Virus record (IMG/VR): IMGVR_UViG_3300010399_000002
Location: 50,733 to 114,732 of that record
Direction: 5' to 3' (one strand)
Origin: a virus
Length of the DNA stretch: 64,000 nt
Part shown: one piece after another, positions 28,466 to 53,429 of the stretch
How the letters are laid out: each line of letters opens with the position of its first letter
Position numbering within the stretch: position 1 is the first letter of the stretch
Program-made: the position numbers and the translations under genes
Notes under the pieces: model-generated
What the model was told of the DNA's origin: nothing
Database searches by the model: none
Seen by the model: the letters and a program-made list of their open reading frames with translations, nothing else

Positions 28466-28732
28466 CTAGTCGAATTTGATTGGTTGATTCAGATGGTTAA
28501 ATAGCACATTCACTGGTGGAGCTCCCGTTACTCCGGTCTGTCCCATCCGACTGTGCATGGCCTCATGTCTGGTGATCTCGTGGATGTTGTAGGTATCGAA
28601 GCCACAACCAACACGACACTGATACCTGGGTTGACCTTCCCACAGAAAATCCGGTTCCCGCCCGGTAGTATTCTCCGGAACTGCTTTGGCGTCAACTGGG
28701 GAAGGCTGAACGTTTCTTTCTGCTTCACTCAT
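28466..28732 (-). CDS. C2H2 zinc-finger protein, 88 aa
   Basis: The segment YQCRVGCGFDTYNIHEITRH, followed by EAMH, forms a single C2H2-like finger. Flanking regions are disordered (N-terminal Pro-rich, C-terminal Gly-rich). The ATG at 28732 overlaps the GT8-like stop by four bases. It is small and of unknown role. Confidence 0.6.
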   Translation of the reverse strand: MSEAERNVQPSPVDAKAVPENTTGREPDFLWEGQPRYQCRVGCGFDTYNIHEITRHEAMHSRMGQTGVTGAPPVNVLFNHLNQPIKFD

Positions 28733-29349
28733 TGCCACTTCTCCTTTATCCAAGACTCGTAACACTCGTTGGGCTTTGGTTTGCCGTGAAAGCACACTAC
28801 CTTGGCGTCATTTGGTGGACGACCTTCTTTACGGCAGTGTGTCTTGTAGCTGGCAATCCAACCTGCTGGCCAGAACGACAACTGATCTGGCGCTACAACC
28901 TTTGTCATCCATTCCTGATCTCCCCAGAATTTCTTTGGGACCTCGGCTGTGAAACTTGTCCACACCTGAGGTAATGATCCGGTCTCCAAAAGATAGCATG
29001 CACTATTGAGATACTGCGGCCTTAGCCAATCGTAGGTCAGTACCAACGGTCCTGAGCTCTCGAACAGATGATCTAATGGTCCGGTTATAACAACATCTAG
29101 ATCAAGAACTAGAACTCGCCTCGCTAGCGAAGTAGCCTCGGGCTTGAATACTGCTAACTTGTTCCACCAACCTGAAAGACCCGGTTGTAACGGAAGATAT
29201 GAACACTGTAATCCGTATGGATCGTCGGTTAGACAGATGAAAGAATAAGGCAATGACAGATTCCGACGAACCATGGACGCAAGACGGTTAGCATACTCGA
29301 ATCCGTACTTTGGTCCCCACTTGATACAAACGACTGCTAGGTCACTCAA
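28729..29349 (-). CDS. Glycosyltransferase, GT8-like
   Basis: The 206-residue protein has AVVCIKWGPKYGFEYANRL at its start, the metal-binding motif VLVLDLDVVITGPL (about residues 88-101), GDQEW and FHGKPKP. These fit GT-A sugar transferases of the GT8 type. A TTG start at 29349 with GAGGAG eight bases upstream is preferred over a GTG at 29376 that has no spacing. It is the leftmost gene of the cassette of sugar-modifying enzymes, next to repeat C. Confidence 0.7.
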   Translation of the reverse strand: MSDLAVVCIKWGPKYGFEYANRLASMVRRNLSLPYSFICLTDDPYGLQCSYLPLQPGLSGWWNKLAVFKPEATSLARRVLVLDLDVVITGPLDHLFESSGPLVLTYDWLRPQYLNSACYLLETGSLPQVWTSFTAEVPKKFWGDQEWMTKVVAPDQLSFWPAGWIASYKTHCRKEGRPPNDAKVVCFHGKPKPNECYESWIKEKWQ

Positions 29350-29392
29350 AACAGCATTCTCCTCATGCAATAGCACCCTCTAAGAACCTGTC

Positions 29393-29477
29393 TAGGAACT
29401 CGCAGGCACTATCGACAGATACCAAATGGTAGTTGAATAGGGTTTTTGTTACTCAGGACGTTGTAGAGGCTGCTACA
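29393..29477 (-). repeat. 85-bp dispersed element, copy C
   Basis: It starts TAGGAACTCGCAGGCACT on the plus strand; GGTAGTTGA and GTTGTAGAGGCTGCTAC lie at the shared offsets. It ends three bases before the stop codon of the GT2-like gene. It has the GTAG...CTAC palindrome at its end (GTAGAGGCTGCTAC). Confidence 0.88.
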
Positions 29478-29480
29478 CTT

Positions 29481-30344
29481 CTACACTACGCCATATAAAT
29501 TCAAACCGATAAAGTGACCTGGCCCGTACGCATCCATCAAGCGCTTGCATTCTTGTTCTTGCCATACTGGGCGATCTCCGATGTCTATGTACTTCATGAG
29601 ATCTTCGTAACCGGTCCACCAAGTCGGATGCACCGAAGATACTGCGACGTTTGTTTCGTCTATAGCCTGATGGTACTTTCGATCTACGGCATCGACTGTC
29701 TCACGATCGGGCCACCTCACACGTTCTGTCATCTTATACAAAGCGTGCTTGGCCTTCAGACGCCGGCGATTGACAAACTGCAAGTGCATCACACCGCCTG
29801 AATTACTGAATGGTCTGTGTTGTGCAATAGTAGAACCAAATGGATGGCGATGATGGAAGTCGTACCCGGCCCTGGTCTCCCATCTCAACGTAGGATGATC
29901 TTTAAATACTGTTGACAACCAAACACGAGACCAAACTGATCTGTCTGACCGATAGAACTCGAGACTCTTCCAACAAGCTGGCATCCACGCCTCGAGAACC
30001 AAACCTGGTGTCAGCTTTTCGGAAGCATCTCGAATCACTGGTAGAAGATTGTTAGTCAGAACCTCGTCTGCATCCACGATAGCAAAATGCGTTCCACCTG
30101 CAGCTCGACCCGCGTCTAGCATCCGTTGGCGGTATTGCATCTCGAACCAGACAGCGTTGTCTTCTCGGATGCGAATAAGCTTACCTGGATATTCGGATTC
30201 GATCTCAGATAGGATCTCGGAAGTACGATCACTGGAAGCATGGTCGAAGACTACTAACTTGTCGCACCACTTCAAAGCTACACGAGCAGTAAGACCTACA
30301 ACCCAGTCTTCGTTACGGCACAGCATCAAACCGACTAGAAACAC
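29481..30344 (-). CDS. Glycosyltransferase family 2-like
   Basis: The 287-residue protein starts with MFLVGLMLCRNEDWVVGLTA and VVFDHASSDRTSEIL, typical for GT2 enzymes. The metal-binding motif is FAIVDADEVL (about residues 88-97). Its centre has GYDFHHRHPFG and the C-terminal part is Trp/Tyr-rich. It is one of about five glycosyltransferases in this block. The sugar and acceptor are unknown. Confidence 0.78.
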   Translation of the reverse strand: MFLVGLMLCRNEDWVVGLTARVALKWCDKLVVFDHASSDRTSEILSEIESEYPGKLIRIREDNAVWFEMQYRQRMLDAGRAAGGTHFAIVDADEVLTNNLLPVIRDASEKLTPGLVLEAWMPACWKSLEFYRSDRSVWSRVWLSTVFKDHPTLRWETRAGYDFHHRHPFGSTIAQHRPFSNSGGVMHLQFVNRRRLKAKHALYKMTERVRWPDRETVDAVDRKYHQAIDETNVAVSSVHPTWWTGYEDLMKYIDIGDRPVWQEQECKRLMDAYGPGHFIGLNLYGVV

Positions 30345-30354
30345 AAATGCTCCT

Positions 30355-31026
30355 TTACATCCCTTGAGTAACGATCACTGTCTCCGGATCTGGAACTGGT
30401 GTGCAGTAACTAAAGAACTTCGGACAGTACGTGGACTTCATTCCCAACTTGTAACTGATGATAGATGCGGCGGGTTGGTCGTGCCTGTGCCCGAGCACTC
30501 GCGGATCTTCGGATACGAGTCTGTTCTTGTTTGTCCATTGGCCTACAAACGTTCCTCGATCAGCGGCTTCTTTCCACAACCTCAAGAACTTCAAGCTACG
30601 TTCGTCTTTGAGGTACAAGCAAACACATCCACCTATCACCAACGAGATCTTGAAAGCCTCTTCTCGACTGGTACCAAGAATCCTCAACGCATGGTCGGTA
30701 CACCACTGCCCAACGCTCCAACCGCAAGTAAACAACAGATACCCGCTGCGTTCTACTTCTTCGATCATTGACTCCAATGGTCGGATAGCCCAACAGGAAG
30801 CATCGAGCCATATAACCAAATCGTGACCTTGTCTAACGGCTTCATACAACGCATAGACTTTGAACGCATACGGATTCTGTTGGTGGGATAAGCACCCGAC
30901 GGGATACTGATTCAGGCCTAGAAACGCTCCTTGGTAACCTTGCGCTTTCAAACTGGATCGCAACCGTTCCTGTCCGCGCAGATACCAGCCCCGACTAGTA
31001 GCGAAACTGACTACACATGGACTCAC
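30355..31026 (-). CDS. Glycosyltransferase-like protein (WLDAS type), 223 aa
   Basis: The motif LVIWLDASCWAIRPL (about residues 70-84) corresponds to the DxD site, and LGHRHDQPAASII with RLVSEDPRVL matches glycosyltransferases that act on capsule or LPS. It starts MSPCVVSFATSRGWYLRGQE. Annotation is by motif only; the acceptor is unknown. Confidence 0.68.
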   Translation of the reverse strand: MSPCVVSFATSRGWYLRGQERLRSSLKAQGYQGAFLGLNQYPVGCLSHQQNPYAFKVYALYEAVRQGHDLVIWLDASCWAIRPLESMIEEVERSGYLLFTCGWSVGQWCTDHALRILGTSREEAFKISLVIGGCVCLYLKDERSLKFLRLWKEAADRGTFVGQWTNKNRLVSEDPRVLGHRHDQPAASIISYKLGMKSTYCPKFFSYCTPVPDPETVIVTQGM

Positions 31027-31027
31027 T

Positions 31028-31471
31028 TTACTTTACTGCATTACGCAATATAGAACCCAACCTCCTGGCCTCAGAAACTGTACCTGGCAACTTTCCTTCC
31101 GACACTGTACCGCCGTGCTTGTCTTTCAGTTCCCAAAAATTCTCTTCACGACCTGGTCCTGTGGATAAGCGTAACTTATGACCGGAGCTGTGCTCAAAGT
31201 TTGCTATTGACTGCGTAGCTGTACCAGAACCTTGTTCTTGAGTTGCCTTATGCCTAAAACCTGCATCTTTCGCTTCCCTACGAACTTCCATTGCACGACC
31301 ACGATGACCTCCAGCTATTTCACCGCCAATTTTCCCTGCACCACTACCTCCTCGTACTCCAAAACTTGCTCCACCTCCGCCACCAGATGAAAACTGACCT
31401 TGAGTGTCGTGATGGGGATTGAACTTGGCAACACGCTGTTGGAGGCTTTTGATGCGTTCTGATGTAGTCAT
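31028..31471 (-). CDS. Tagged protein with FNPHHD..GQFSSGGGGG leader, 147 aa
   Basis: The first 30 residues (helical RIKSLQQRVA then KFNPHHDTQGQFSSGGGGG) repeat almost unchanged in the protein at 32257-32559. The remaining part (HRGRAMEVRREAKDAGFRHK, and later SSGHKLRLSTGPGREENFW) is a small alpha/beta domain of unknown fold. Similar NPxHDxxxGxF leaders occur in other genes here (48929, 52638). The leader may serve as a virion-packaging tag; this is inference. Confidence 0.6.
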   Translation of the reverse strand: MTTSERIKSLQQRVAKFNPHHDTQGQFSSGGGGGASFGVRGGSGAGKIGGEIAGGHRGRAMEVRREAKDAGFRHKATQEQGSGTATQSIANFEHSSGHKLRLSTGPGREENFWELKDKHGGTVSEGKLPGTVSEARRLGSILRNAVK

Positions 31472-32253
31472 AGGCCCTCCTGATCTCGGTCTGGAACGTT
31501 TCGATATGCACTACCGATGGTTGGATCTTTTACGCCACCTGGCGTTCCTATCTGTTCGAACAGTTGCGGATACAAATCCTGGTCTTGCGGCTGGTCTCTT
31601 CCGTACTGGCACGCTTCTCGATACAATCTGTACCCATACCGATGTGCAAGATTCGTCAAGATGGCTTGCTCGCACCGATGCTCGTGCAACTCGGGATGCT
31701 CTGGAAGTATGAGACTCGGATCAAAAGTAGTAGCTGATGGATTGACGCAGTACGTCAACCACTCCATGAGAAATTGCTGCGGCTTCCATCGACCTTTTTG
31801 GAACACAAAGAATCTGGCGACAGCGTGCTGGACATCTCGATACCGCGGCTCGTCTTGACCCATCACGATAAAGCAATCACGCTTGCACCAGCAATTATTC
31901 CAACAGCCTACGGCATTAAACAACATGATGCCGTCTTTTTTGACTTCTTCAAACAGCACAGAGAAGTCTGCGATAGGATGCGTGTCTCCATCGGTAAACA
32001 GAATGATGTCTCCGTCTTGCACACGTGACAGAGCGTCCATCATCACATACGGCTTCCAAGCGAACCAACCTACACCGCGGGACGCATGGTGATCCCACAA
32101 CCAAGTATTGTGTCTGCGGAACTCCGTCTTACTGAGCCACAAGTCGTCGTAGACCCAAACCTCATCGGCACCCAACTTCGGAGCGTCACGAACGGTTTGA
32201 CCTATAACCTCGTTATATGACGACCCGCCGAACGTGATGTAGATTTTTCTCAT
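31468..32253 (-). CDS. Glycosyltransferase-like protein (DGD type), 261 aa
   Basis: The motif GDIILFTDGDTHPIADF (about residues 80-96) provides the DxD site, and HEHRCEQAILTNLAHRYGY matches the C-terminal conserved part of this glycosyltransferase-like family. The N-terminus MRKIYITFGGSSYNEVIGQT is typical for the group. It overlaps the previous tagged-protein start by four bases. Confidence 0.68.
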   Translation of the reverse strand: MRKIYITFGGSSYNEVIGQTVRDAPKLGADEVWVYDDLWLSKTEFRRHNTWLWDHHASRGVGWFAWKPYVMMDALSRVQDGDIILFTDGDTHPIADFSVLFEEVKKDGIMLFNAVGCWNNCWCKRDCFIVMGQDEPRYRDVQHAVARFFVFQKGRWKPQQFLMEWLTYCVNPSATTFDPSLILPEHPELHEHRCEQAILTNLAHRYGYRLYREACQYGRDQPQDQDLYPQLFEQIGTPGGVKDPTIGSAYRNVPDRDQEGL

Positions 32254-32256
32254 GTA

Positions 32257-32559
32257 CTAAGCTGTTGTGCGCTGCAAGTCGGAAGACTGATAATTGCCCG
32301 AAGTACCGTCTTTGAATCTGACTATATGGAACTCACCGGATGGAGCTGAAGTAACAATCTTGCCGTGTTTACCTTTACCTTTAACTGGACCTTTAACCTT
32401 AACCGAATCCCCTTCGGTCAACTTACTCCCGAACATGCGAGCGCTGCCTCCACCACCGCCACTAGAACTAAACTGTCCCTGCGCATCATGATGGGGATTG
32501 AACTTGGTTAGCAGAGACTCAACTCGATCGTTGAGCTGTACAATACGCTCACTTGTCAT
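32257..32559 (-). CDS. Tagged protein with FNPHHD..GQFSSSGGGGG leader and SH3/KOW-like domain, 100 aa
   Basis: The leader (RIVQLNDRVESLLTKFNPHH then DAQGQFSSSGGGGG) is shared with 31028-31471. The C-terminal half (TEGDSVKVKGPVKGKGKHGK then IVRFKDGTSGNYQSSDL) reads like an SH3/KOW-type fold. The ATG at 32559 is chosen because GGAG lies seven bases upstream and it overlaps the previous stop as ATGA. Confidence 0.62.
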   Translation of the reverse strand: MTSERIVQLNDRVESLLTKFNPHHDAQGQFSSSGGGGGSARMFGSKLTEGDSVKVKGPVKGKGKHGKIVTSAPSGEFHIVRFKDGTSGNYQSSDLQRTTA

Positions 32560-33305
32560 TTGCACACTCCAAAGTCAAAATTCATACTCGCACGTCTAGC
32601 AGCAAATGCCTCTTTGTGCGCTGGATCTGATACATGGTCTGGGGGCTGGAAATCGCCTCGCCAACAGACCGCTACCATTTGTGGTGTATCGTAAATACGA
32701 CAGTGCATCCCACCTGTACCGTGGTCTTGCAAAAGATACTTGACCGCCTCTAACACCGGACCGCCGAAGTCGTGAAACGCAATCACACCACGTGGTCTCA
32801 ATCTCGATAACGCGAACTGGGCATCCAACTGTGGTACCGGAGAATCGTGGTCACCGTCAATAAAAACCCCGTCGAAGAAATCCTGATCCCCGATAACGGA
32901 ATACTGATCTGATCGAAGAGCGACAGGGTGAAGTATAGCAGTGTCTGCCTTAGCATTGGGGGCATCGTACTGACGCACGTTATCCATGTTCTCCAACCAC
33001 CGCTCAAAGAACGCACGCTCTCTCAATCTTGGCTCAAGCATCAATACACTACGCACACCGGTCAGGTGGGCGATGTGCGCACCGCTCCAACCAGTTTGAC
33101 TTCCGATCTCGAGCCAGTCGCCTTTAATCCTGTGAGCGATCTCCCAAAGTATAGCAGCCTCGTCGGCACTGATCCAACCGGGCACTGGTGGAAAGTCCGG
33201 ATCACAGAGGATCTCATGATCGTAGCCTACTACGATTGGTTGTGCATGTACGAAACAGGACCTAAGATCTGGTCCGTGGATAAGATTAGAACGATAGTTA
33301 TACAT
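32556..33305 (-). CDS. Class I SAM-dependent methyltransferase
   Basis: The protein has 249 residues. The SAM-binding motif is GDWLEIGSQTGWSGAHIA (about residues 62-79), followed by VLMLEPRL and FFDGVFIDGDHD (about 137), then GVIAFHDF. It is like Methyltransf_24 enzymes that modify sugars. It belongs to the cassette and is probably coupled to the tagged gene downstream by ATGA. Confidence 0.78.
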   Translation of the reverse strand: MYNYRSNLIHGPDLRSCFVHAQPIVVGYDHEILCDPDFPPVPGWISADEAAILWEIAHRIKGDWLEIGSQTGWSGAHIAHLTGVRSVLMLEPRLRERAFFERWLENMDNVRQYDAPNAKADTAILHPVALRSDQYSVIGDQDFFDGVFIDGDHDSPVPQLDAQFALSRLRPRGVIAFHDFGGPVLEAVKYLLQDHGTGGMHCRIYDTPQMVAVCWRGDFQPPDHVSDPAHKEAFAARRASMNFDFGVCK

Positions 33306-33308
33306 GTC

Positions 33309-33926
33309 TCACTCGGCAAACCAACAATCATTACACGGCAGCGGTACTGTTGGAAGTATGGTCTTCCAATCGATCTGTGGCTCTAACGGTGTAGCAGTTG
33401 GAATCCCCGGGCCTACGCAACAGCCGAAGAACTTCCCGTCGGCATAGGCGCACCCGTCAGAAATGAAACACGCTCTCGAACACGGCTTACCTTCTGCCCG
33501 ACGGATACGCGGTACAAAATTTGCTCCGTTTGGTCCGGCATTGTACATACCGACCTTCACGCCTCGACCTAACAGTGCGTTCAACGCCTGGTGGTTATCG
33601 CCGTAGTCACTAAAGTCTACCCAGGTAAAATGTTCGACAATGGTATCCAAATGCGCTATCACCCGATAACCGTTCGTGTTCATGGTCAGCGTCGTACAAC
33701 CGAACAACTCTCTGAACCTCGGTACGAACTCAGCGAACTTCGGATGTGCTGTTGGTTCTCCACCTGTTAAATTGATGCGTTCGATGCCTTGCAACCATTT
33801 GGCAGCAGTCTCAAAGTACGACCAATCATGGTGGCCTAGCACTCGATTGATGCCTACACCCGCGCAGCAATCGGGACAACGCTTGTTACAATGCGTCGTC
33901 AGATCGAGATTGACTGTATGGATCAC
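33309..33926 (-). CDS. Radical SAM enzyme
   Basis: The N-terminal motif TTHCNKRCPDCCAG (CxxxCxxC, about residues 12-20) binds the SAM [4Fe-4S] cluster, and NLTGGEPTAHPKF is the classic GGEP strand. Additional cysteines at ACFISDGCAY, FFGCCVG and CNDCW could bind a second cluster (SPASM-like). The protein has 205 residues, smaller than most, and is rare in phages. It may modify a sugar or peptide in the cassette. The product is unknown. Confidence 0.82.
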   Translation of the reverse strand: MIHTVNLDLTTHCNKRCPDCCAGVGINRVLGHHDWSYFETAAKWLQGIERINLTGGEPTAHPKFAEFVPRFRELFGCTTLTMNTNGYRVIAHLDTIVEHFTWVDFSDYGDNHQALNALLGRGVKVGMYNAGPNGANFVPRIRRAEGKPCSRACFISDGCAYADGKFFGCCVGPGIPTATPLEPQIDWKTILPTVPLPCNDCWFAE

Positions 33927-34507
33927 GGCATGGCCAGAATCAGATTGTTACCGTCGTAGTACGGACAGATGTAACCTAACCCGGTAGCAATCTGTAAGAT
34001 CTCACCTTCATGGTGATCGTGCTCAACGCATATGCACTTCGGTCTCATAGCTGCCAACGGAAAGCGCTTGAACAATTCAGTTGACGTGCCCTCTGTATCA
34101 ATACTGATGAAATCGAAACCGCCGAACTGATTGAGAATCTGCTCGACAGTAATCTGCGGTACCCAGAACCGACCGGTAAAGTCTGCATGAGCTTTCCACT
34201 TCTCGTAGTTCTCGTCCTGAGTAGTAGATATGGCATCGGGACTGTTATAGAACTGGATTAGACTCTGATCTAAACCCACGGCTGCCATGATCAGCGACAA
34301 CTTATCGTTGCCTCGATGTCTATCCGACAGTGCCATGAACGCATTGGGAGACGGTTCGATGAGAACTCCACCCCAACCTCGCTCGACCAATGCTAATGTA
34401 TTGGAAAAGGTCTTACCATCGAACGCTCCGATATCGAGAAACCTCCCGACATGGTCTCCGAAAATTTCCAGGATAACCTTCTCTTCACCTTTTTGGGAAT
34501 ATGGCAT
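33923..34507 (-). CDS. FkbM-family methyltransferase
   Basis: The segment YSQKGEEKVILEIFG and VGRFLDIGAFDGKTFSNTL, with GGVLIEPSPNAF, and DFISIDTEGT (about residue 130) are the FkbM-like methyltransferase signature. FkbM enzymes O-methylate sugars. The ATG at 34507 is taken rather than the upstream TTG frame, which overlaps the neighbour. It pairs with a second FkbM-like gene. Confidence 0.76.
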   Translation of the reverse strand: MPYSQKGEEKVILEIFGDHVGRFLDIGAFDGKTFSNTLALVERGWGGVLIEPSPNAFMALSDRHRGNDKLSLIMAAVGLDQSLIQFYNSPDAISTTQDENYEKWKAHADFTGRFWVPQITVEQILNQFGGFDFISIDTEGTSTELFKRFPLAAMRPKCICVEHDHHEGEILQIATGLGYICPYYDGNNLILAMP

Positions 34508-34511
34508 TTTC

Positions 34512-35186
34512 TTATGCACTGTAGTTACTGTTCCGTAACAGCAGATTATAGTCAAACTCCTTTACGATCTCCCAACCTGGAAGCATAGCCAACAACTCCG
34601 CACGGTTGGCCTGTCCTTCGTACATCTCATGGTCGTCGGCTTCGATGAACAAGTAACGCGTTCTGCTTAGAGCCTCTCGGCCACCTTCAATCACATCTCG
34701 TTCGGCACCTTGCACATCCACCCAAAGCAACTCTACCTTTTCGAGTTTCTCGGTCTCATACAGATTGTCCAACGTAACGCATTGCACCTCAACGGTCTTC
34801 GGAAACGTACACCAGGGAAAGAACTCGAGATGCTTCTTCGGCTTCCGAATTGAACTGCTAGCTGTTCCATAACCGATCTCGTTCTCACACAGGTGTAATT
34901 CAATTGTACCTGAATGAGCTGCAACAGCAGCCTCGTAGAAGTTTGTAATACCGTTGAAACCGTTCTCGCGAATATAATCGGCGTTACGCGGATCGGGCTC
35001 TAGAGCGATGTATCTTCTGGCGTGAGGACTCATCCAAGCTGCGTCTTCGGCATGGAAGGTTCCTAACTCCACAACAGTTGGCTTGTCTGCGGCCTTCAGA
35101 ATCTCAATGATAGCTTGCTGTATGTCGGACACCAGCTGCTGCTCGAGAGTAACCTCTGCAACTTGATCTACAATTTCCTCTTGCAC
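34512..35186 (-). CDS. FkbM-like methyltransferase, second copy
   Basis: The protein has 224 residues: PTVVELGTFHAEDAAWMSP, YIALEPDPRNADYI, VELLWVDVQGAERDVIEGG and the terminal half give a class I methyltransferase with an FkbM-like end. It has a GTG start with AGGTG five bases upstream. Its 5' end faces the only plus-strand gene in the window. Confidence 0.73.
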   Translation of the reverse strand: MQEEIVDQVAEVTLEQQLVSDIQQAIIEILKAADKPTVVELGTFHAEDAAWMSPHARRYIALEPDPRNADYIRENGFNGITNFYEAAVAAHSGTIELHLCENEIGYGTASSSIRKPKKHLEFFPWCTFPKTVEVQCVTLDNLYETEKLEKVELLWVDVQGAERDVIEGGREALSRTRYLFIEADDHEMYEGQANRAELLAMLPGWEIVKEFDYNLLLRNSNYSA

Positions 35187-46255: not shown

Positions 46256-47245
46256 TTACGCGACGATGCTGTCGAAGAAATAGCCTAGATCGGCTGAGAT
46301 CTTCTTTTGATCGAACGCCATCTCGATCTCCACCCGATCCGATGCCAGTGCCTCCATACGGAAGCGCTTGATGCGGTTCCCTTGAGCACCGGCGCCGAGA
46401 TGACCTGTCCAGCTGAACGTGTAGCCTGAAGCTGGGGTCATCAACCCGGGTGATGGAGGTGAATAAAAGAGCCCTACCTTTTTCCCACCGATGAAAGAAT
46501 GGGTGGCGGTAGCTGCTCCTTCTTTCGCCGTGTTCTCGATTGACTTCATGATGAACACGCGATCAACCTTGAACAGTGCTGCGATCTCCGTCAGGTCGAC
46601 CATAGCTGGACCGTTGGGAGTCTGCCCGTACTTGACCCGATCGACGAACTGCGGATGGTTGACCAAGTACTTCAGGACCGAGTAACCCATCACGAGCGTG
46701 TTGGGCTCGAAACCGGTAGACTGAAGAACAACTTCCTTACCGGCCCAAATGTTCTCAATGGGCGTGGCGTTGGCATTGTTCCACTGAAGCACCTGACCGG
46801 AGCCCGGAGCTGAAGCGACGCCGGTGATATCCGTAGTCCAGATACCAGTACCGAAGAACTTCGACACGAACAACTTCTCTCTCTTGATCAGAGCCTTCAG
46901 CGTTACAAAGGCTGTTGCTTCCTGATCGAGATTGATAGGTACGTCGGCGTTCGAACGGACCTGATCGGGAATATCCTGGTGGAAAGCGTACAGATGGGCA
47001 AAGTACGTATCGGTACCGGGCTTGTAACCGGAACCGACCGACTCTGTGCTCACCGCACGAACCTCCATCTCGTCCCGGTTCCAGTAAGCGTGGTCGTACG
47101 TGTAATAGCTGTCCGACTGCTTCTGAACGGGAATGTTGGGAAAGACATCGGCCGCAATGAAATTTTTCTGGTCCTGGATATAAGCGACCGAGAAATTCGT
47201 TAGCGGACGGTTGACATGGACATCGCCTGGAGTTGGCAGAGGCAT
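46256..47245 (-). CDS. Major capsid protein
   Basis: The 329-residue protein has the E-loop-like start (DVHVNRPLTNFSVAYIQDQK), FIAADVFPNIPVQKQSDSYY, and the capsid-type VVLQSTGFEPNTLVMGYSVL and LFYSPPSPGLMTPASGYTFSW. These match the HK97-fold major capsid proteins of the group with the motif A-x-x-x-F-P-x-[IV]-x-V. A strong AAAGGAG site precedes the ATG. It forms the capsid shell and follows scaffold and decoration genes. Confidence 0.87.
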   Translation of the reverse strand: MPLPTPGDVHVNRPLTNFSVAYIQDQKNFIAADVFPNIPVQKQSDSYYTYDHAYWNRDEMEVRAVSTESVGSGYKPGTDTYFAHLYAFHQDIPDQVRSNADVPINLDQEATAFVTLKALIKREKLFVSKFFGTGIWTTDITGVASAPGSGQVLQWNNANATPIENIWAGKEVVLQSTGFEPNTLVMGYSVLKYLVNHPQFVDRVKYGQTPNGPAMVDLTEIAALFKVDRVFIMKSIENTAKEGAATATHSFIGGKKVGLFYSPPSPGLMTPASGYTFSWTGHLGAGAQGNRIKRFRMEALASDRVEIEMAFDQKKISADLGYFFDSIVA

Positions 47246-47695: not shown

Positions 47696-48421
47696 TTACT
47701 GCCTGGTGCTTCCCACTGCTTCGGCAGCCAATTCGGGATTGCGCTCCATGGCCAACGTGTAACCTTTGGCCAAAGTCACCTTCTCGTCCTGGCTGATTTT
47801 CTTGCCGATGGCTTCCAACTTGGCGTGTGGCGTGTTGCCGTTCCCTTCGCCTGGCTGGTCGCTACCTACGGCCTTGGTTAGCTTGCCAAGAGCCGCGTCG
47901 CCGGCCTTCATAAAAGTCACGACCTTCTCGGCTTCGGCTTCTCCGAGCTTGTCGTACAGCGACTTCATGATGAGACCTTTTTCTTCCGGCTTCCCGGGAG
48001 TATTGGGCAACTCGGTCTCGGCCCGCTTCGTGAACTCGATGACCTTCCGGGCATCCGCTTCGCGCTTGGCGATCTCGTTGGCTTCCTTGGCCGAAGTCTC
48101 GGCATCGGTTGCGCGCTTTTCGAGAGCTTCCATGCGCTTCTGGATCTCGGTCGGCACCTTGTTGGCCTTCTCGATAGCTTCGGTCATCTGGTTCTTGCGA
48201 ACCTCCGACGTGGCTTCCAAGAACGCGTCCTGCCCTTCCTCGTTGAGCTTGCTGAAGTACTCCTTCTCAGCGTCGTTCAACTTGGAAATGGCCTCGAATC
48301 GAACAGCAGCGGCCTTGGCGACTTCGAGCTCTTCTCCGATGGTCTCCAACTTCTCGACCTTGGACTCGAGTTCTTCCAAGTGCTTGTCGATCTCTTCGGG
48401 TGTCATATCTTTTGCTGGCAT
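47696..48421 (-). CDS. Scaffold / head assembly protein
   Basis: The 241-residue protein is highly charged and mostly helical (EIDKHLEELESKVEKLETIG, EIQKRMEALEKRATDAETSA). Position upstream of capsid genes and the coiled-coil composition fit a scaffold that is removed or cleaved during head maturation. An NNTPHAK-like stretch lies near the end. No enzymatic motif is present. Confidence 0.78.
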   Translation of the reverse strand: MPAKDMTPEEIDKHLEELESKVEKLETIGEELEVAKAAAVRFEAISKLNDAEKEYFSKLNEEGQDAFLEATSEVRKNQMTEAIEKANKVPTEIQKRMEALEKRATDAETSAKEANEIAKREADARKVIEFTKRAETELPNTPGKPEEKGLIMKSLYDKLGEAEAEKVVTFMKAGDAALGKLTKAVGSDQPGEGNGNTPHAKLEAIGKKISQDEKVTLAKGYTLAMERNPELAAEAVGSTRQ

Positions 48422-48496: not shown

Positions 48497-48805
48497 TTAC
48501 CGACTTGGGTATCTCAAATGGTGGGGCTTGAACCTGGCCTGCAAAGACGAAACACGCTTACTCAATGTCTCGAGTCTCTTCTTGGCCATGTCCTTTTTCT
48601 CGTCCCACGGCACCTCGAGCTTCTCACCTTTGGGCTTCTTCTTTTTCTTGTCTTCTTCCAACTCAGCGGGCTTGGGAGGACCTTCTTTTCCGTAACGCTT
48701 GAACAGAACCACTGGTGCATGTTGGTTGGCTCCGCGGTCGACGAACGAAACCTCGTCCATATCCAACTCGGTGATCTTGTGGACCTTAATCTGCGTGGTA
48801 GCCAT
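48497..48805 (-). CDS. Protein with VDRGANQHA motif (protease-leader-like), 102 aa
   Basis: The segment LDMDEVSFVDRGANQHAPVV then LFKR is the known leader of XkdF-like phage proteases (S-x-V-D-R-G-A-N). Here it is detached from a protease body: a Lys/Glu-rich middle and an end RVSSLQARFKPHHLRYPSR, which resembles the FNPHHD tags. It may be a scaffold or a split-off piece. It lies just left of copy E. Confidence 0.62.
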   Translation of the reverse strand: MATTQIKVHKITELDMDEVSFVDRGANQHAPVVLFKRYGKEGPPKPAELEEDKKKKKPKGEKLEVPWDEKKDMAKKRLETLSKRVSSLQARFKPHHLRYPSR

Positions 48806-48848: not shown

Positions 48849-48933
48849 TAGGGCCTCACAGGCACTCGTCTCGGATGTTGAATGGTAGTTGGTAAGGGGT
48901 CTGAACCCCCGACTCGTTGTAGAGGCTGCTACT
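48849..48933 (-). repeat. 85-bp dispersed element, copy E
   Basis: It starts TAGGGCCTCACAGGCACT on the plus strand; GGTAGTTGG and GTTGTAGAGGCTGCTAC are at the common offsets. It also holds a short palindrome GGGGTCTGAACCCC (minus strand reads GGGGTTCAGACCCC). It overlaps the stop codon of the tagged gene at 48929 by five bases. Confidence 0.88.
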
Positions 48934-49423
48934 TAGTCTTGAAATTGGGTGCGTTCCTACCTGTATGGAACTTTCGTGGACCGCCCTCTACGAACTCAAA
49001 CATACCTTGCGCTCGATCTGTCCCCTGAGTATTAACGTAGAAACGACGATCTTGGTACTCGATAGTAAACTCGTTGCCTTTGGTCTTGTCTTTGAAAGCC
49101 TCATTGGACGTACGCGGAGTAATAGGAACTCCTAACCCGGTTGAGTATGGAACCTTAACAACTGGCTTGGTCTGCAAAGCACTCCACTCTTCATCTGTGA
49201 ACGATGACTGCTTAAATCTTTTTGTATCTTGCCAACCCTGTACACGATCTTCTGTCGGCTTGGTTTTATCTGCAAAAAGACTGGTAGTGTCTTTACTCGC
49301 TCCGATGCCGACTCCACCTGACCCGCCACCCGTTGAACAGAACTGACCTCCGCTATCGTGACAAGTATTCATCTTTTCGATGCGATCATACAACCTCGCA
49401 ATGTGAATACTTGCACTGGCCAC
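48929..49423 (-). CDS. Tagged protein with MNTCHDSGGQFCSTGGG leader, 164 aa
   Basis: The leader (HIARLYDRIEKMNTCHDSGG then QFCSTGGGSGG) is a variant of FNPHHDxxGQFSS-GGG found in other genes here. The C-terminal domain (DEEWSALQTKPVVKVPYSTG, EFTIEYQDRRFYVNTQGTD) is alpha/beta and unknown. Position among head genes supports a virion role. Confidence 0.6.
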   Translation of the reverse strand: MASASIHIARLYDRIEKMNTCHDSGGQFCSTGGGSGGVGIGASKDTTSLFADKTKPTEDRVQGWQDTKRFKQSSFTDEEWSALQTKPVVKVPYSTGLGVPITPRTSNEAFKDKTKGNEFTIEYQDRRFYVNTQGTDRAQGMFEFVEGGPRKFHTGRNAPNFKTK

Positions 49424-51061
49424 TTACACCGTCTCCTCAACTGGAGTAAGAAGCCCGTACCCGTGAATCGAGAACTCTTTCAAGATGCCCTTCTTCACCT
49501 GATCCCATGTCCCGTGATCCGTTACCTGCCAACCAACCCACCAACCTACGCGCCCGAGATCGATCCCTAACGCCTCTTGCTTGGCCTTGGTGAAGACTAT
49601 ACTCTCGATCAGATCTCCAACCCCGACCTTCTGGTGCATGTTGCCGGCCTTGCGAACGTTTTTGACAAACCTATATGCGGCCTTCTCGAGCTCGTCCTCG
49701 GACATTTGGTGCTTCTGAAGATCAGTAACGATCTGCCCGTCTTTCTCGATGGTAGATGCCCAACCAAAGGCTTGCATCTTGTCATTGTCGATCTTACTGA
49801 TAGGAGTCGTTATACTGATCTTCGATAGAGCCTTGCGCTGAACCTTGAGTGACCATGATCTCCCGGCGTTGCCGCCCATTCCAAACCAGTTCTGGTAATC
49901 TGGGCCGTTGTTGGCCCAAGCATCGCCTTGGCCTTTACTCATCGTCCCGAAGAACCTGACCATGTTCTGAATTTCATCTGGGTCGATAGCCGTACCGTTG
50001 GCGAGCTTCGAGGCTAGAGCATACATCCCGTTACCCAAACCTCGCTGCCCTTCTTCTTTGTTCTTGAAAACCTCGAGTGCCTTCTTGGCCTTCGTCTGAA
50101 CTGCAACCGGAGGCACGTGCTTTTCGAGCTTCGCTTCCAAAGGCTCCCAACTATTGCAAACGTACCGTGTGTTGTAGTTGAACGAGTACAGATCGCAATA
50201 TCCATCTCCACCGTGAATGCAACTCGAACAAGTCTCTCCCCGATCTTCTGCCTGCCTGTAGTTGGGAGCATCCTTCATGGCCTTCTCGACCGGCTCTTCG
50301 TCCGTAGTCTCGAGATTGAACTCCTTACCGATGGGACCGACCTGAAAAATAATGTCTTCGAGTGTTATCTCGGCGTGCTGCACCCGCGGCGTGGGCGTAG
50401 CTGCTGACTGATCGATGTATGCCAACGTGATATGCGGCGTATAGCTCTCAAAGTTCTCGGAGAACTCTACACCCTTGGCTTTTAGAGCTGTAGCCAACTC
50501 ATCTCGAAACTTCAGCAGATCTGCAGACATAACCGGAACGTAAGCCACGTCTTTGAAGTCGGAATGTTCTGTAGCTGGAAAGCGTCCTACACCGCCAATA
50601 GAAGCCTTGACTGGACCTCGATCTGCGGTAAATGAATCGAGAACCTCTTCTGCGGCAGCTAGTTGAGACAGAGACACGTCTTCGAACTTGCCGAGATAAA
50701 ACAACGTGATATGCATCTCATCGGGCGGCATCGGACGAGTACTCGTTGTATCGATGTATTGCCCGTACCCTAGAGCTAGTGCCTTGGTGAGACCTTCGTC
50801 CAACTTGAACGCGATCATGACCCCGTGATGCAGATCTCCATTCATATGTGGGCACTTCGAGATCTTCGTATACTTTCCATCTTCACCTCGTTTGTAACCG
50901 GCGTTCTTCAATGCACCGTAGGCCATTGCAAAAGCTCGGGCTTCACTCTTGCCGCTACCCAGGATGCTGTTGAATGCACTCCTGAAGATAGTTTGGGCGT
51001 GGTCGTCGGGAACGATGCTCTTGATCTTACTCGGTAATGCGTCATTGGATGAATACGGCAT
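49424..51061 (-). CDS. Multi-domain protein: ChaB + 2H phosphoesterase + cysteine module + XkdF-like prohead protease
   Basis: The 545-residue protein has a ChaB-like domain (1-65, NDALPSKIKSIVPDDHAQTI), then a 2H phosphoesterase (about 78-245) with the two required motifs MHITLFYLG (H117, T119) and PHITLAYI (H210, T212). A cysteine cluster follows (C278, C281, C289, C302). A middle region contains GNAGRSW. The XkdF-like serine protease lies in 428-540 (AFGWASTIEKDGQIVTDLQK, GVGDLIESIVFT, IKEFSIHGYG-like end). XkdF-type enzymes trim the prohead; the 2H fold hydrolyses cyclic phosphates or 2',3'/2',5' bonds. The fusion is unusual; the 2H role is inferred. Confidence 0.78.
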   Translation of the reverse strand: MPYSSNDALPSKIKSIVPDDHAQTIFRSAFNSILGSGKSEARAFAMAYGALKNAGYKRGEDGKYTKISKCPHMNGDLHHGVMIAFKLDEGLTKALALGYGQYIDTTSTRPMPPDEMHITLFYLGKFEDVSLSQLAAAEEVLDSFTADRGPVKASIGGVGRFPATEHSDFKDVAYVPVMSADLLKFRDELATALKAKGVEFSENFESYTPHITLAYIDQSAATPTPRVQHAEITLEDIIFQVGPIGKEFNLETTDEEPVEKAMKDAPNYRQAEDRGETCSSCIHGGDGYCDLYSFNYNTRYVCNSWEPLEAKLEKHVPPVAVQTKAKKALEVFKNKEEGQRGLGNGMYALASKLANGTAIDPDEIQNMVRFFGTMSKGQGDAWANNGPDYQNWFGMGGNAGRSWSLKVQRKALSKISITTPISKIDNDKMQAFGWASTIEKDGQIVTDLQKHQMSEDELEKAAYRFVKNVRKAGNMHQKVGVGDLIESIVFTKAKQEALGIDLGRVGWWVGWQVTDHGTWDQVKKGILKEFSIHGYGLLTPVEETV

Positions 51062-51130: not shown

Positions 51131-52252
51131 TCAGTTGAACTTCAGAACTGTTGTACAGCGACAGCTCGGATGCACTGGAGGATACTCGTACGGACCGTTT
51201 GGTGTAACAAACTGTTCTCCAAGTGGAACACCTTGCGGATTCATTTTTGGAATAGGTCCGCACACTGCACACGTTCTTCCGTCTCGCGTTACAACCCACT
51301 TCTTTCTGGTAATCGCCTCGTCCAGCAGATCTTGATTGATTGCTTGTCTCCAAACCTCTTGCTGACCGGCGTTTGCAGCACGAAGACTTTCCGTTCTCGC
51401 GATCGTCATGGCCCGGTATTGCAGGAACCGTTCCTCATAGCGCTCCACCATTGTATCGATGGTAGCGGCTGACATCGTTCGACGACCTTCTACCTCGGCT
51501 AGGATACTGCGGTCGAATCTTCCATCTCGCAATGCGCGACCCAACGTGTTGATTAGCTGGGTCTCGTCTCCCGACTCCAATGCGCTGCGGTAATTCCTGA
51601 CTGCTTTGGCTTGACTCTTCGTTAGACCGATAATGCCTTTCAGCTCTCGCGCCATCGTAGCTGGAGTCTTGCCTGCTTGATAGCCTTCTACTAGAACGTC
51701 TTGGATAGCTTCGAGTGTAGAATCCGTTACCTCTCGGATTAGAGTGAAATCGTAGTCTCTGAGAAACTGGACGGCCTCTTCGGCTATGTAGTCGAAGATC
51801 AACTCGACTCCGACCTTGGGACGAGCTGCTTTCTCAACGGGAACCTTGACGCTACCTAAAGCTGTGATCTCGTAATCGGCGCCGGCATTGAAAGCTGCTC
51901 GCAACGCTTCTGAAAAAGATAATGACTGGGGATCGGCTCCTTTACCTCTAGACGCCGCTAGAAACCTGTTACGAAGATCTAGACTCGTTAATACCGAACT
52001 CGGTCCCGCGGCTATGGCTTCTTCGAGAGCCCTCAACGAGAACTTGTCTTTGACAACGTGAACTGCATCCACAAACGCCTTGGCGATCTTTAGCTCTTGC
52101 TTCTCGGCGGTCTCGAGTATGTCTGCGCCTATGGCTTTTGAGACTACAGCCTTCTTCTCTACCTTCGGAAGATTGGCTGATATAGCCTGAGACCAAGCAC
52201 GGATGTCTTGGTCTAGACTAGCCTCGAACTCTTCTATGACTTCGGCGGTCAT
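51131..52252 (-). CDS. MuF-type minor head protein
   Basis: The 373-residue protein starts at an ATG (52252) overlapping the previous stop as ATGA. Its end (RDGRTCAVCGPIPKMNPQGV then YPPVHPSCRCTTVLKFN) is the MuF/SPP1 gp7 head-morphogenesis signature. It may be injected or required for stable DNA packaging. A long helical body leads to it. It lies just upstream of the ChaB/2H/XkdF gene. Confidence 0.82.
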   Translation of the reverse strand: MTAEVIEEFEASLDQDIRAWSQAISANLPKVEKKAVVSKAIGADILETAEKQELKIAKAFVDAVHVVKDKFSLRALEEAIAAGPSSVLTSLDLRNRFLAASRGKGADPQSLSFSEALRAAFNAGADYEITALGSVKVPVEKAARPKVGVELIFDYIAEEAVQFLRDYDFTLIREVTDSTLEAIQDVLVEGYQAGKTPATMARELKGIIGLTKSQAKAVRNYRSALESGDETQLINTLGRALRDGRFDRSILAEVEGRRTMSAATIDTMVERYEERFLQYRAMTIARTESLRAANAGQQEVWRQAINQDLLDEAITRKKWVVTRDGRTCAVCGPIPKMNPQGVPLGEQFVTPNGPYEYPPVHPSCRCTTVLKFN

Positions 52253-52641
52253 TGCACGGCGTCCAAGAACTCGTAAGTCACAACCCCGTACCGGTAACAA
52301 TACGGGACATAAGCGCAATCCCGAAACAAGAACAGATCGGTTAATGGCACATGATGGGGATACAAAGGCAACCAGAATCTCGGATCGTTTCCCGCACGTC
52401 TGCACTGAGTCTGCAAATTCTCGTATGTCAGTATATGCGGTTGCGGATGATAGTGAGCATACAACTGACCTTTGTCGTTGAGAATCTGCAACTTGACCCG
52501 GCCGGCAACTGTATCTGCGGCTACGCACCTGGATGATACATCCTCGCCGTCGATGAACACACGGGCTCGGGCGTTCTTAACGATGTCTTCCATCTCGGGA
52601 GGCTCGTAGATTCCTTTGGTCAGATCGACACGGATGTTCAT
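52249..52641 (-). CDS. Hypothetical protein in head gene block, 130 aa
   Basis: The ATG at 52641 overlaps the previous stop as ATGA. The protein has beta-rich MEDIVKNARARVFIDGEDVS and DTVAGRVKLQILNDKGQLYA, followed by a Cys/His/Tyr-rich end (YPHHVPLTDLFLFRDCAYVP). It is linked by overlap to MuF and the tagged nuclease-like gene. Function unknown. Confidence 0.6.
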   Translation of the reverse strand: MNIRVDLTKGIYEPPEMEDIVKNARARVFIDGEDVSSRCVAADTVAGRVKLQILNDKGQLYAHYHPQPHILTYENLQTQCRRAGNDPRFWLPLYPHHVPLTDLFLFRDCAYVPYCYRYGVVTYEFLDAVQ

Positions 52642-53429
52642 GCAACCTCGTACTTCTCGATTAGCTCGGCCCACGCCTTCGAGATGGAACTGTACTTAAA
52701 TGTTCCTACGTACGCAGCCTTGACTGCTGGATTCGTCCAACCTGTCCGCAACTTGAAACCGCGAAACACGAACACATCGGCGGTCTTCTTGTCTGGATTG
52801 ATAATGCTCGTTACTGTGAGAGTCTCAATCTTGCAACGGCATTGCTTGGCTAACGCTTGTACCGCGGCTTCCTTGCGTTCCAGGATGCGCTTTTGCTTGC
52901 GCTCGTTCCAAGCCTTCTTCTTCTCCGGACTAGCCTTCGCTAACCAAGCGCTTTCCTTTACACCCGGCTGTCCGATAGTAGCTCGCCACTGTTGCGCTGA
53001 TTTACCGTTACTGACTAGACCCGCCTTGACCTCGATGACCCGATTACCAGCCATCATGTCCACAGCGAAGTTATTGACCTTGACGTTCAGCGTCTTGGCC
53101 TTTTGCTTTTGCGTCGTGTTGATATACGCAGCAGCAATCTGCTCACCAAGATACCCAACCTCTAACTTGCTGAGCTTGTTCTTAACCGGAACCTCTTCAC
53201 CAGAAAAGACCCGACCGGATACGCGACTGATAGCGACAGCGCCTGTTGGCCCGATCTTCGAACTCTTACTGCCACCTGTGGCACAGAACTGACCGCCCTT
53301 CGAGCCAGAAGATACATGGCACGGATTAGCCTTGCCTATCGAACCCAGAGCCTTACTGAAAAGCGCTGGACCCGACGGCCAGGACCCCAAGGGGTTTAGT
53401 ATGGCGGTAAAGTTAGCTGTGGCACTCAT
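52638..53429 (-). CDS. Tagged protein with PD-(D/E)XK-like nuclease domain, 263 aa
   Basis: Residues 34-50 give a tag NPCHVSSGSKGGQFCATGG, related to the FNPHHD..GQFSS tags. The centre (GYLGEQIAAAYINTTQKQKA, then NFAVDMMAGNRVIEVKAG) contains D...ExK spacing of a PD-(D/E)XK nuclease (Asp about 120, ExK about 130). Basic Lys/Arg-rich helix follows (EKKKAWNERKQKRILERKEA). Such a protein could be a virion-packaged nuclease. Nuclease activity is not shown. Confidence 0.62.
   Translation of the reverse strand: MSATANFTAILNPLGSWPSGPALFSKALGSIGKANPCHVSSGSKGGQFCATGGSKSSKIGPTGAVAISRVSGRVFSGEEVPVKNKLSKLEVGYLGEQIAAAYINTTQKQKAKTLNVKVNNFAVDMMAGNRVIEVKAGLVSNGKSAQQWRATIGQPGVKESAWLAKASPEKKKAWNERKQKRILERKEAAVQALAKQCRCKIETLTVTSIINPDKKTADVFVFRGFKLRTGWTNPAVKAAYVGTFKYSSISKAWAELIEKYEVA

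Follow-up and report, generated by a model that had tools for sequence, protein, structure and literature searches.

Gene content of the locus

The gene considered here lies on the minus strand of a 64,000-nucleotide stretch of viral DNA (the window), which is part of a 114,732-base virus record. Its ATG is at position 51061, and GGGAGG is found shortly 5' of the ATG. The sequence-only reading had described a single gene with ChaB, 2H phosphoesterase, cysteine-cluster and XkdF modules, and Pfam scores confirm the ChaB, 2H and XkdF parts. All the modules that it named are present, however, it missed a further, unnamed module at residues 308-409. The features are listed below.

49424..51061, minus strand: whole gene, 545 aa, in the order ChaB, 2H, Cys cluster, unnamed module, XkdF protease (ORF and Pfam)
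50873..51037, minus strand: ChaB domain, residues 9-63 (PF06150, 32.1 bits, cut-off 27)
50312..50824, minus strand: 2H phosphoesterase domain, about residues 80-250 (PF13563 and PF02834 over cut-off; structural model)
50705..50713, minus strand: catalytic motif 1, His117-Ile-Thr119, conserved in the phage lineage
50426..50434, minus strand: catalytic motif 2, His210-Ile-Thr212, conserved in the phage lineage
50147..50230, minus strand: four-cysteine cluster, residues 278-305, C-x2-C-x7-C-x12-C-x2-W; clusters of the same type occur in L123 and L151, both 2H proteins
49835..50140, minus strand: unnamed module, residues 308-409, resembling S-CBS4 gp019 and Vibrio phage proteins
49457..49801, minus strand: XkdF-type head maturation protease, residues 421-535 (PF14550, Peptidase_S78_2, 65.3 bits, cut-off 24)
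51131..52528 (longest ORF), minus strand: MuF-type head morphogenesis gene, directly upstream (PF04233, 43.7 bits; phrog_3517)
47696..48421, minus strand: scaffold-like protein, named from position and composition; its matches are PHROGs of unknown function only
46256..47245, minus strand: major capsid protein gene, downstream (phrog_1005, E 1e-86)
31028-31471, 32257-32565, 48929-49423 and 52638-53429, all minus strand: small proteins with a shared N-terminal tag

The order on the minus strand is MuF, the 2H-XkdF gene, genes for a 164-aa and a 102-aa protein, the scaffold-like protein, a 125-aa protein and the major capsid protein. The coding part of the MuF gene probably starts near 52252 rather than at the end of the longest ORF. 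The major capsid protein is nearest to those of the Pseudomonas phages RSP/KPP23 (55% identity to the KPP23 protein), and the Roseobacter RDJL phages follow at 52-53%. No tRNA genes were found within the 64-kb window.

In the protease domain H476 and D447 are conserved in 32/32 sequences and S531 in 31/32. Judged from the Pfam score and the conserved His and Ser, the sequence of residues 421-535 is that of an XkdF head maturation protease (PF14550). The unnamed module matches a free-standing gene, gp019, which Synechococcus phage S-CBS4 has close to its head genes. When the Cys cluster and residues 308-409 were used together as the query 9 records were matched, and the ChaB segment gave just 2 matches among phage records. 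The whole 545-aa protein matched 5 stretches of the viral contigs, with no relative among them, and relatives were recovered only after the contigs were queried with the 2H domain alone.

Several small proteins in the window deserve mention in their own right. Four that are otherwise unlike each other share an N-terminal tag of the NPxHDxxGQFxSxGGG or CHxxGGQFCxTGG type. At the DNA level the first of these two patterns is found 2 times in the window, where 0 are expected. The tag is possibly one for head targeting or cleavage. The product of 52638-53429 appears nuclease-like by eye (D...ExK) and has no family match. Two of the tagged genes are interleaved with glycosyltransferase- and methyltransferase-like genes (by eye) at 28729-34555. 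Elsewhere, a 794-aa S78 prohead protease (L154:11065-13449) has three copies of a tag of this kind along its N-terminal half and resembles a polyprotein in which tagged segments precede a protease. In Gordonia phage ChisanaKitsune the VIP2-like and HNH proteins beside the 2H gene (gp22, gp23; L003:6801-10798) have in common an N-terminal stretch like VRDxEYWGxPYGTPITPG, which is perhaps another cargo tag. The 102-aa ORF (48497-48805) is separate, has a weak S78 match under the cut-off and starts with VDRGAN-type residues, which we take to be usual at the C-terminal side of prohead proteases.

Fold and catalytic residues of the 2H domain

Two Pfam families match the 2H domain above their cut-offs, 2_5_RNA_ligase2 on residues 113-222 (PF13563, 44.4 bits, cut-off 27) and LigT_PEase (PF02834, 31.5 bits, cut-off 23.3). 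The AlphaFold model of the domain, made with 32 sequences, has a pLDDT of 90.4 and a pTM of 0.86, and the model of the full-length protein (pLDDT 56.1) is unusable beyond the 2H part. The motifs H117-x-T119 and H210-x-T212 lie where the sequence-only reading had located them and are near-invariant in the phage lineage, with H117, T119 and H210 in 110/110 members and T212 in 109/110. The 2H and protease motifs are not due to chance, since their catalytic residues are near-invariant across relatives. The model keeps both motifs and its top structural matches are 2H enzymes; on this model the domain at about residues 80-250 belongs to the 2H fold with paired His-x-Thr, as had been proposed.

The best solved-structure matches to the model are LigT-type RNA phosphodiesterases (Z 17.0-15.5), namely 5h7e (Z 17.0, rmsd 3.3, 167 aligned), 1iuh (Z 16.5) and E. 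coli LigT 5ldm (Z 15.5). Usb1 (Z 14.6), AKAP18 (14.3), rotavirus VP3 (13.8), MHV ns2 (13.7) and the plant Appr>p phosphodiesterase 1jh6 (12.3) come lower. Acb1, to which the sequence-only reading had likened the domain, is lower still (Z 10.9 and 10.1), next to the poxvirus cGAMP PDE (Z 10.8), and many 2H enzymes exceed Z 10. The structural rank against Acb1 cannot decide function, because both have the 2H fold and Acb1 is the shorter protein.

Residues on the substrate side

Beyond the HxT motifs, LigT contacts the phosphates and ribose of its ligand with Arg6, Phe8 and Arg130 (PMC5283653). These positions, matched to the lineage columns by hand from their distance to the HxT motifs, are Gly (94/110), Met (90/110) and Tyr (104/110) in the phage lineage, and Arg (15/16), Phe (16/16) and Arg (13/16) in the cellular set. 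The position of Arg130 (E. coli numbering) is Tyr215 in the present protein. The LigT/ThpR equivalog TIGR02258 (NCBIfam) gives 45.4 bits, under its cut-off of 65.7.

Kinship with Acb1 stands as a distant relation and fails as membership of the Acb1 type proper. An hhalign comparison of T4 Acb1 with the 2H domain gave a probability of 93.8 and an E-value of 1.7e-7 over 104 columns. In it Gly10, Tyr12, Phe107 and Tyr118 of Acb1 face Gly80, Met82, Phe204 and Tyr215 (matched by eye), and the alignment stops before the region of Acb1 Glu141 and the lid Trp147. Tyr12 is the base-stacking residue of Acb1 in the source for its mechanism (PMC9117128). In seven free Acb1 proteins Gly10, Tyr12 and Glu141 are found in 7/7 and Tyr118 in 6/7. 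The Pfam Acb1 family (PF23474) gives 23.4 bits on the 2H domain, under the cut-off of 27, against 202.7 for T4 Acb1. A tree of 7 Acb1, 16 cellular and 69 head rows has three groups with support of 99, 92 and 72; it is a quick tree with long branches, in which the 7/7 Acb1 rows form one clade (SH-aLRT 99) without head rows. The head rows, 69 of 110, comprise all those with named partners other than portals and random samples of 16/37 portal and 16/36 other rows. The Acb1 assignment proper is ruled out by the PF23474 score, the separate clade and Met82 in place of Tyr12.

Read from these residues, the lineage differs from LigT on the substrate side, and at two of the three changed positions, that of Tyr12 excepted, it has the residue of Acb1. 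The three separate tree groups and the residue pattern argue that it is best seen as a third group, neither LigT nor Acb1. The substrate of the head-fused 2H lineage cannot be read from sequence.

Head-protein partners of the phage lineage

A tblastn search of 50,697 phage records with the 2H domain matched 45 records, 44 of them from actinobacteria phages. Eleven contexts of these matches were inspected; in nine a portal gene is annotated no more than three genes upstream, one lacks functional names and one lacks annotation. The non-redundant set of 128 2H domains comes from the phage records and from three scans, with 35 viral, 24 genome and 80 viral loci. A head domain is present in the same ORF for 73/128; the 55/128 in which our own models found no partner are an upper bound, because these HMMs were built from few seeds. 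Pfam on 27 of the 55 found a Mu-like protease in 3, Phage_capsid in 2, Portal_Mu in 2, ADP-ribosyltransferase in 2 and Zeta toxin in 1.

The 73 partners are portal (37), XkdF (25), MuF without portal or XkdF (6), capsid (3), S78 (1) and DUF2213 (1). Portal fusions divide into portal-2H (25) and portal-2H-MuF (12). The XkdF fusions comprise 22 of 2H-XkdF and one each with MuF before, with MuF after and with an S78-overlapping hit; the 2H domain precedes XkdF in 25/25 non-redundant cases, with 8-409 residues between the domains. The other architectures are 2H-MuF (4), MuF-2H (2), 2H-capsid (3), DUF2213-2H (1) and S78-2H (1). Pfam confirmed partners in examples of each kind: portal (L009), Mu portal (L137), capsid (L015, L027), S78 (L036), DUF2213 (L041), MuF (L045) and XkdF (L008, L054, L111, L139, L151).

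With the same models a head gene was found in the same locus for 93/110 members of the phage lineage and 0/16 cellular relatives, although the queries used to gather the lineage were head-located and may bias it towards head contexts. The 16 cellular rows are weaker genome-scan matches that received their labels by locus number ahead of tree building, and they fall in one clade apart from the phage lineage (SH-aLRT 99). The tie to head proteins that had been proposed from the one gene is therefore strong and recurrent.

The 2H tree has 126 rows, as 2 of the 128, under about 120 residues, were left out. On this quick tree with many open forks the XkdF label needs 13 changes (gains and losses together), at least 4 of them forced by well-supported branches, and some rows counted as other are cut by contig ends. 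It follows that the 2H domain has repeatedly joined or left head proteins. The nearest 2H protein in the tree (L151:5841-8963) has 1040 aa, with a weak ChaB domain, a histidine phosphatase, a Cys cluster, 2H and XkdF.

Acb1 on phage portals

Gene product 70 of Pseudomonas phage psageK9 (NC_074661 41321-43123; L165:5322-7124) is a portal protein (PF06381, residues 38-385, E 5.3e-89) with a C-terminal Acb1 domain (PF23474, residues 457-598, 148.1 bits, cut-off 27). Among the best 80 of 114 loci from viral contigs (L166-L245), the Acb1 tail is present in 68/80 related portals, with 56 distinct tail sequences, and absent from 12/80, which stop behind the portal domain (in one case at a contig end); the ratio of 68 to 12 is biased towards the tail because the query held both domains. 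One tail-less portal in this set (L199) is 97% identical across residues 1-431. The tail looks dispensable for the portal. In the 56 tails from these loci Tyr12, His44, Thr46 and His113 are each present in 56/56, Thr115 in 55/56 and Glu141 in 52/56; Gly10 is replaced in 56/56, and the Trp74 position is aromatic in 0/56.

The portal is an obligate part of the virion. An anti-CBASS enzyme carried by the virion therefore has its cleanest candidate in the portal-Acb1 fusion, and nearly identical portals that differ in having the tail are a natural pair for testing virion carriage. No report of this fusion was found in the literature searched, supplements and most subscription papers lying outside its scope, and the words portal, fused and virion are absent from the main text of the Acb1 paper (PMC9117128).

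Proposed role and alternatives

Both enzyme domains retain the residues needed for catalysis, the gene lies between those for MuF and the major capsid protein, and the 2H lineage occurs on several unrelated head proteins. We propose that the gene product is an XkdF-type head maturation protease with a 2H domain on its N-terminal side, which is almost certainly active as predicted. The protease would very probably draw the 2H domain into the prohead. After maturation the domain, cut free or not, may well stay in the head and enter the cell with the DNA, a step whose chance is somewhat better than even. Before phage gene expression it would then cleave a phosphodiester in a host nucleotide signal; candidates are the oligonucleotides, cyclic or 2'-5'-linked, of CBASS-like systems or of type III CRISPR systems. 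Once the domain is delivered, an immune nucleotide rather than RNA would be a reasonably likely substrate. The gradings of these steps are our rough judgement, and the steps are correlated. Taken whole, an XkdF protease with an N-terminal 2H domain that is virion-borne and degrades a host immune nucleotide signal is a real possibility that falls a little short of an even chance, and the idea put forward from the sequence is partly supported.

The replaced LigT contact residues, two of them Acb1-like, and the precedent of a genuine Acb1 on a phage portal favour this proposal; Met82 at the position of Acb1 Tyr12 and the LigT-type RNA enzymes as nearest solved folds speak against it. The latter agree with a 2H domain that is injected as an RNA enzyme, either a Usb1-like nuclease or an opener of 2',3'-cyclic ends left by host defence RNases. 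LigT/ThpR and Usb1 are the closest folds, RNase action is one of two readings in Iyer et al. 2017, the other being degradation of the nucleotides of counter-invader systems (PMC5512222), and genes for an RNase or nuclease occur in related head modules (Edmundo gp19, gp22). However, Arg6, Phe8 and Arg130 of LigT are replaced across the lineage, TIGR02258 stays below its cut-off, and no RNA ligase of PF09414, the one family searched for, was found in the 114,732-base record, which may be a fragment. An RNA enzyme is accordingly judged rather unlikely, though it deserves serious weight. ADP-ribose 1'',2''-cyclic phosphate or a modified NAD derivative of an ADP-ribosylation network is a much less probable substrate. 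The match to the plant Appr>p phosphodiesterase, the ADP-ribosyltransferase domains in 2/27 scanned 2H proteins and a virus NAD/ADP-ribose network that includes 2H (PMC9503650) would agree with it, but the present protein has no ADP-ribosyltransferase and the match reflects the general fold only.

The mature virion may also lack the domain, which would act in the producing cell or in assembly (as a chaperone, in clearing RNA from the prohead or in late removal of a signal) and be lost when the protease exits the head. Once freed by prohead proteases, propeptides would generally be expected to exit the head (PMC10052503), and a fusion to the protease therefore promises virion carriage less strongly than one to the portal. 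Signal degradation by a late-expressed enzyme would presumably protect assembly too. The same domain is, however, also found on portals and capsid proteins, which remain in virions, and we regard its absence from the virion as unlikely. A gene-calling artefact, or the joining of two genes by a sequencing error, has next to no credibility. No second genome was found with exactly the present module order, but the constant order of 2H before XkdF, on many contigs and in isolated phages, refutes such an artefact by independent fusions.

More broadly, and as a doubtful extension of the virion-borne proposal, phages may load signal-degrading 2H enzymes by two routes, optional Acb1 tails on portals and a LigT-derived hopping lineage. 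This lineage would, equally tentatively, move among XkdF, portal, MuF and capsid proteins and include the present gene. If so, CBASS-like or CRISPR nucleotide signals would be stripped from the first minute, before phage genes are read. Counter-defence enzymes against CBASS are usually pictured as produced after infection, and an enzyme carried by the particle would act earlier. That one enzyme domain has been captured by several unrelated families of head proteins argues that the head matters and not the partner.

Comparison with known systems

The general idea is not new, because two earlier papers, of 2017 and 2022, put forward virion-borne signal degradation by 2H-MuF and 2H-portal fusions. 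The first reported such fusions (Iyer et al. 2017, PMC5512222). The second, a survey, restated the idea and added packaging and injection; the domain that it reports on a capsid-processing serine peptidase is Nudix and not 2H (PMC9503650). LigT-like PDEs have been presented as pan-viral anti-immune enzymes (PMC11410667). The proteins of 2017 and 2022 resemble the present one in having 2H on head proteins and in their proposed delivery with the phage, but the partners given in those sources are MuF and portal, whereas here 2H is joined to an XkdF protease and accompanied by ChaB and Cys modules. In having an effector domain on a head protein within a block of late genes, the present gene agrees with the polyvalent or virion-delivered effector proteins. 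A 2H-XkdF fusion as such was not found reported in the literature searched, again with supplements and most subscription papers outside its scope.

The LigT/ThpR RNA 2',3'-cyclic phosphodiesterases provide the top solved-structure matches (5h7e, 1iuh, 5ldm) but differ in that the cellular set is a clade of its own and Arg6, Phe8 and Arg130 are replaced in the present lineage. Acb1 of phage T4 (57B) has in common with the present domain the 2H fold, the HxT/HxT tetrad and Gly10 and Tyr118, which match Gly80 and Tyr215. It differs in being a free 152-aa protein with Tyr12, while the present domain has Met82, a separate clade and a score below the cut-off.

The closest arrangement, 2H followed by XkdF, is found in gp18 of the Arthrobacter phages Laroye and Edmundo and in gp7 of Microbacterium phage ValentiniPuff (phrog_14859). 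These genes sit after those for portal and MuF, and that of Edmundo precedes the major capsid gene. Their products have 370-390 aa, without the ChaB, Cys or 308-409 module, and the overall identity to the present protein is 28% for Edmundo and 22% for ValentiniPuff. GenBank gives the actinophage fusions the names aldolase, RNA ligase or capsid maturation protease. For Laroye gene 18 the name aldolase also appears in print (PMC5513430), and phrog_14859 proteins are annotated for just one half, as 'RNA ligase' or 'capsid maturation protease'. The aldolase and 'RNA ligase' labels are rejected, as Pfam shows 2H plus XkdF, and the latter label conceals a head protease. The XkdF fusion is a variant of the known head-fused 2H proteins that is also present, unremarked, in actinophages.
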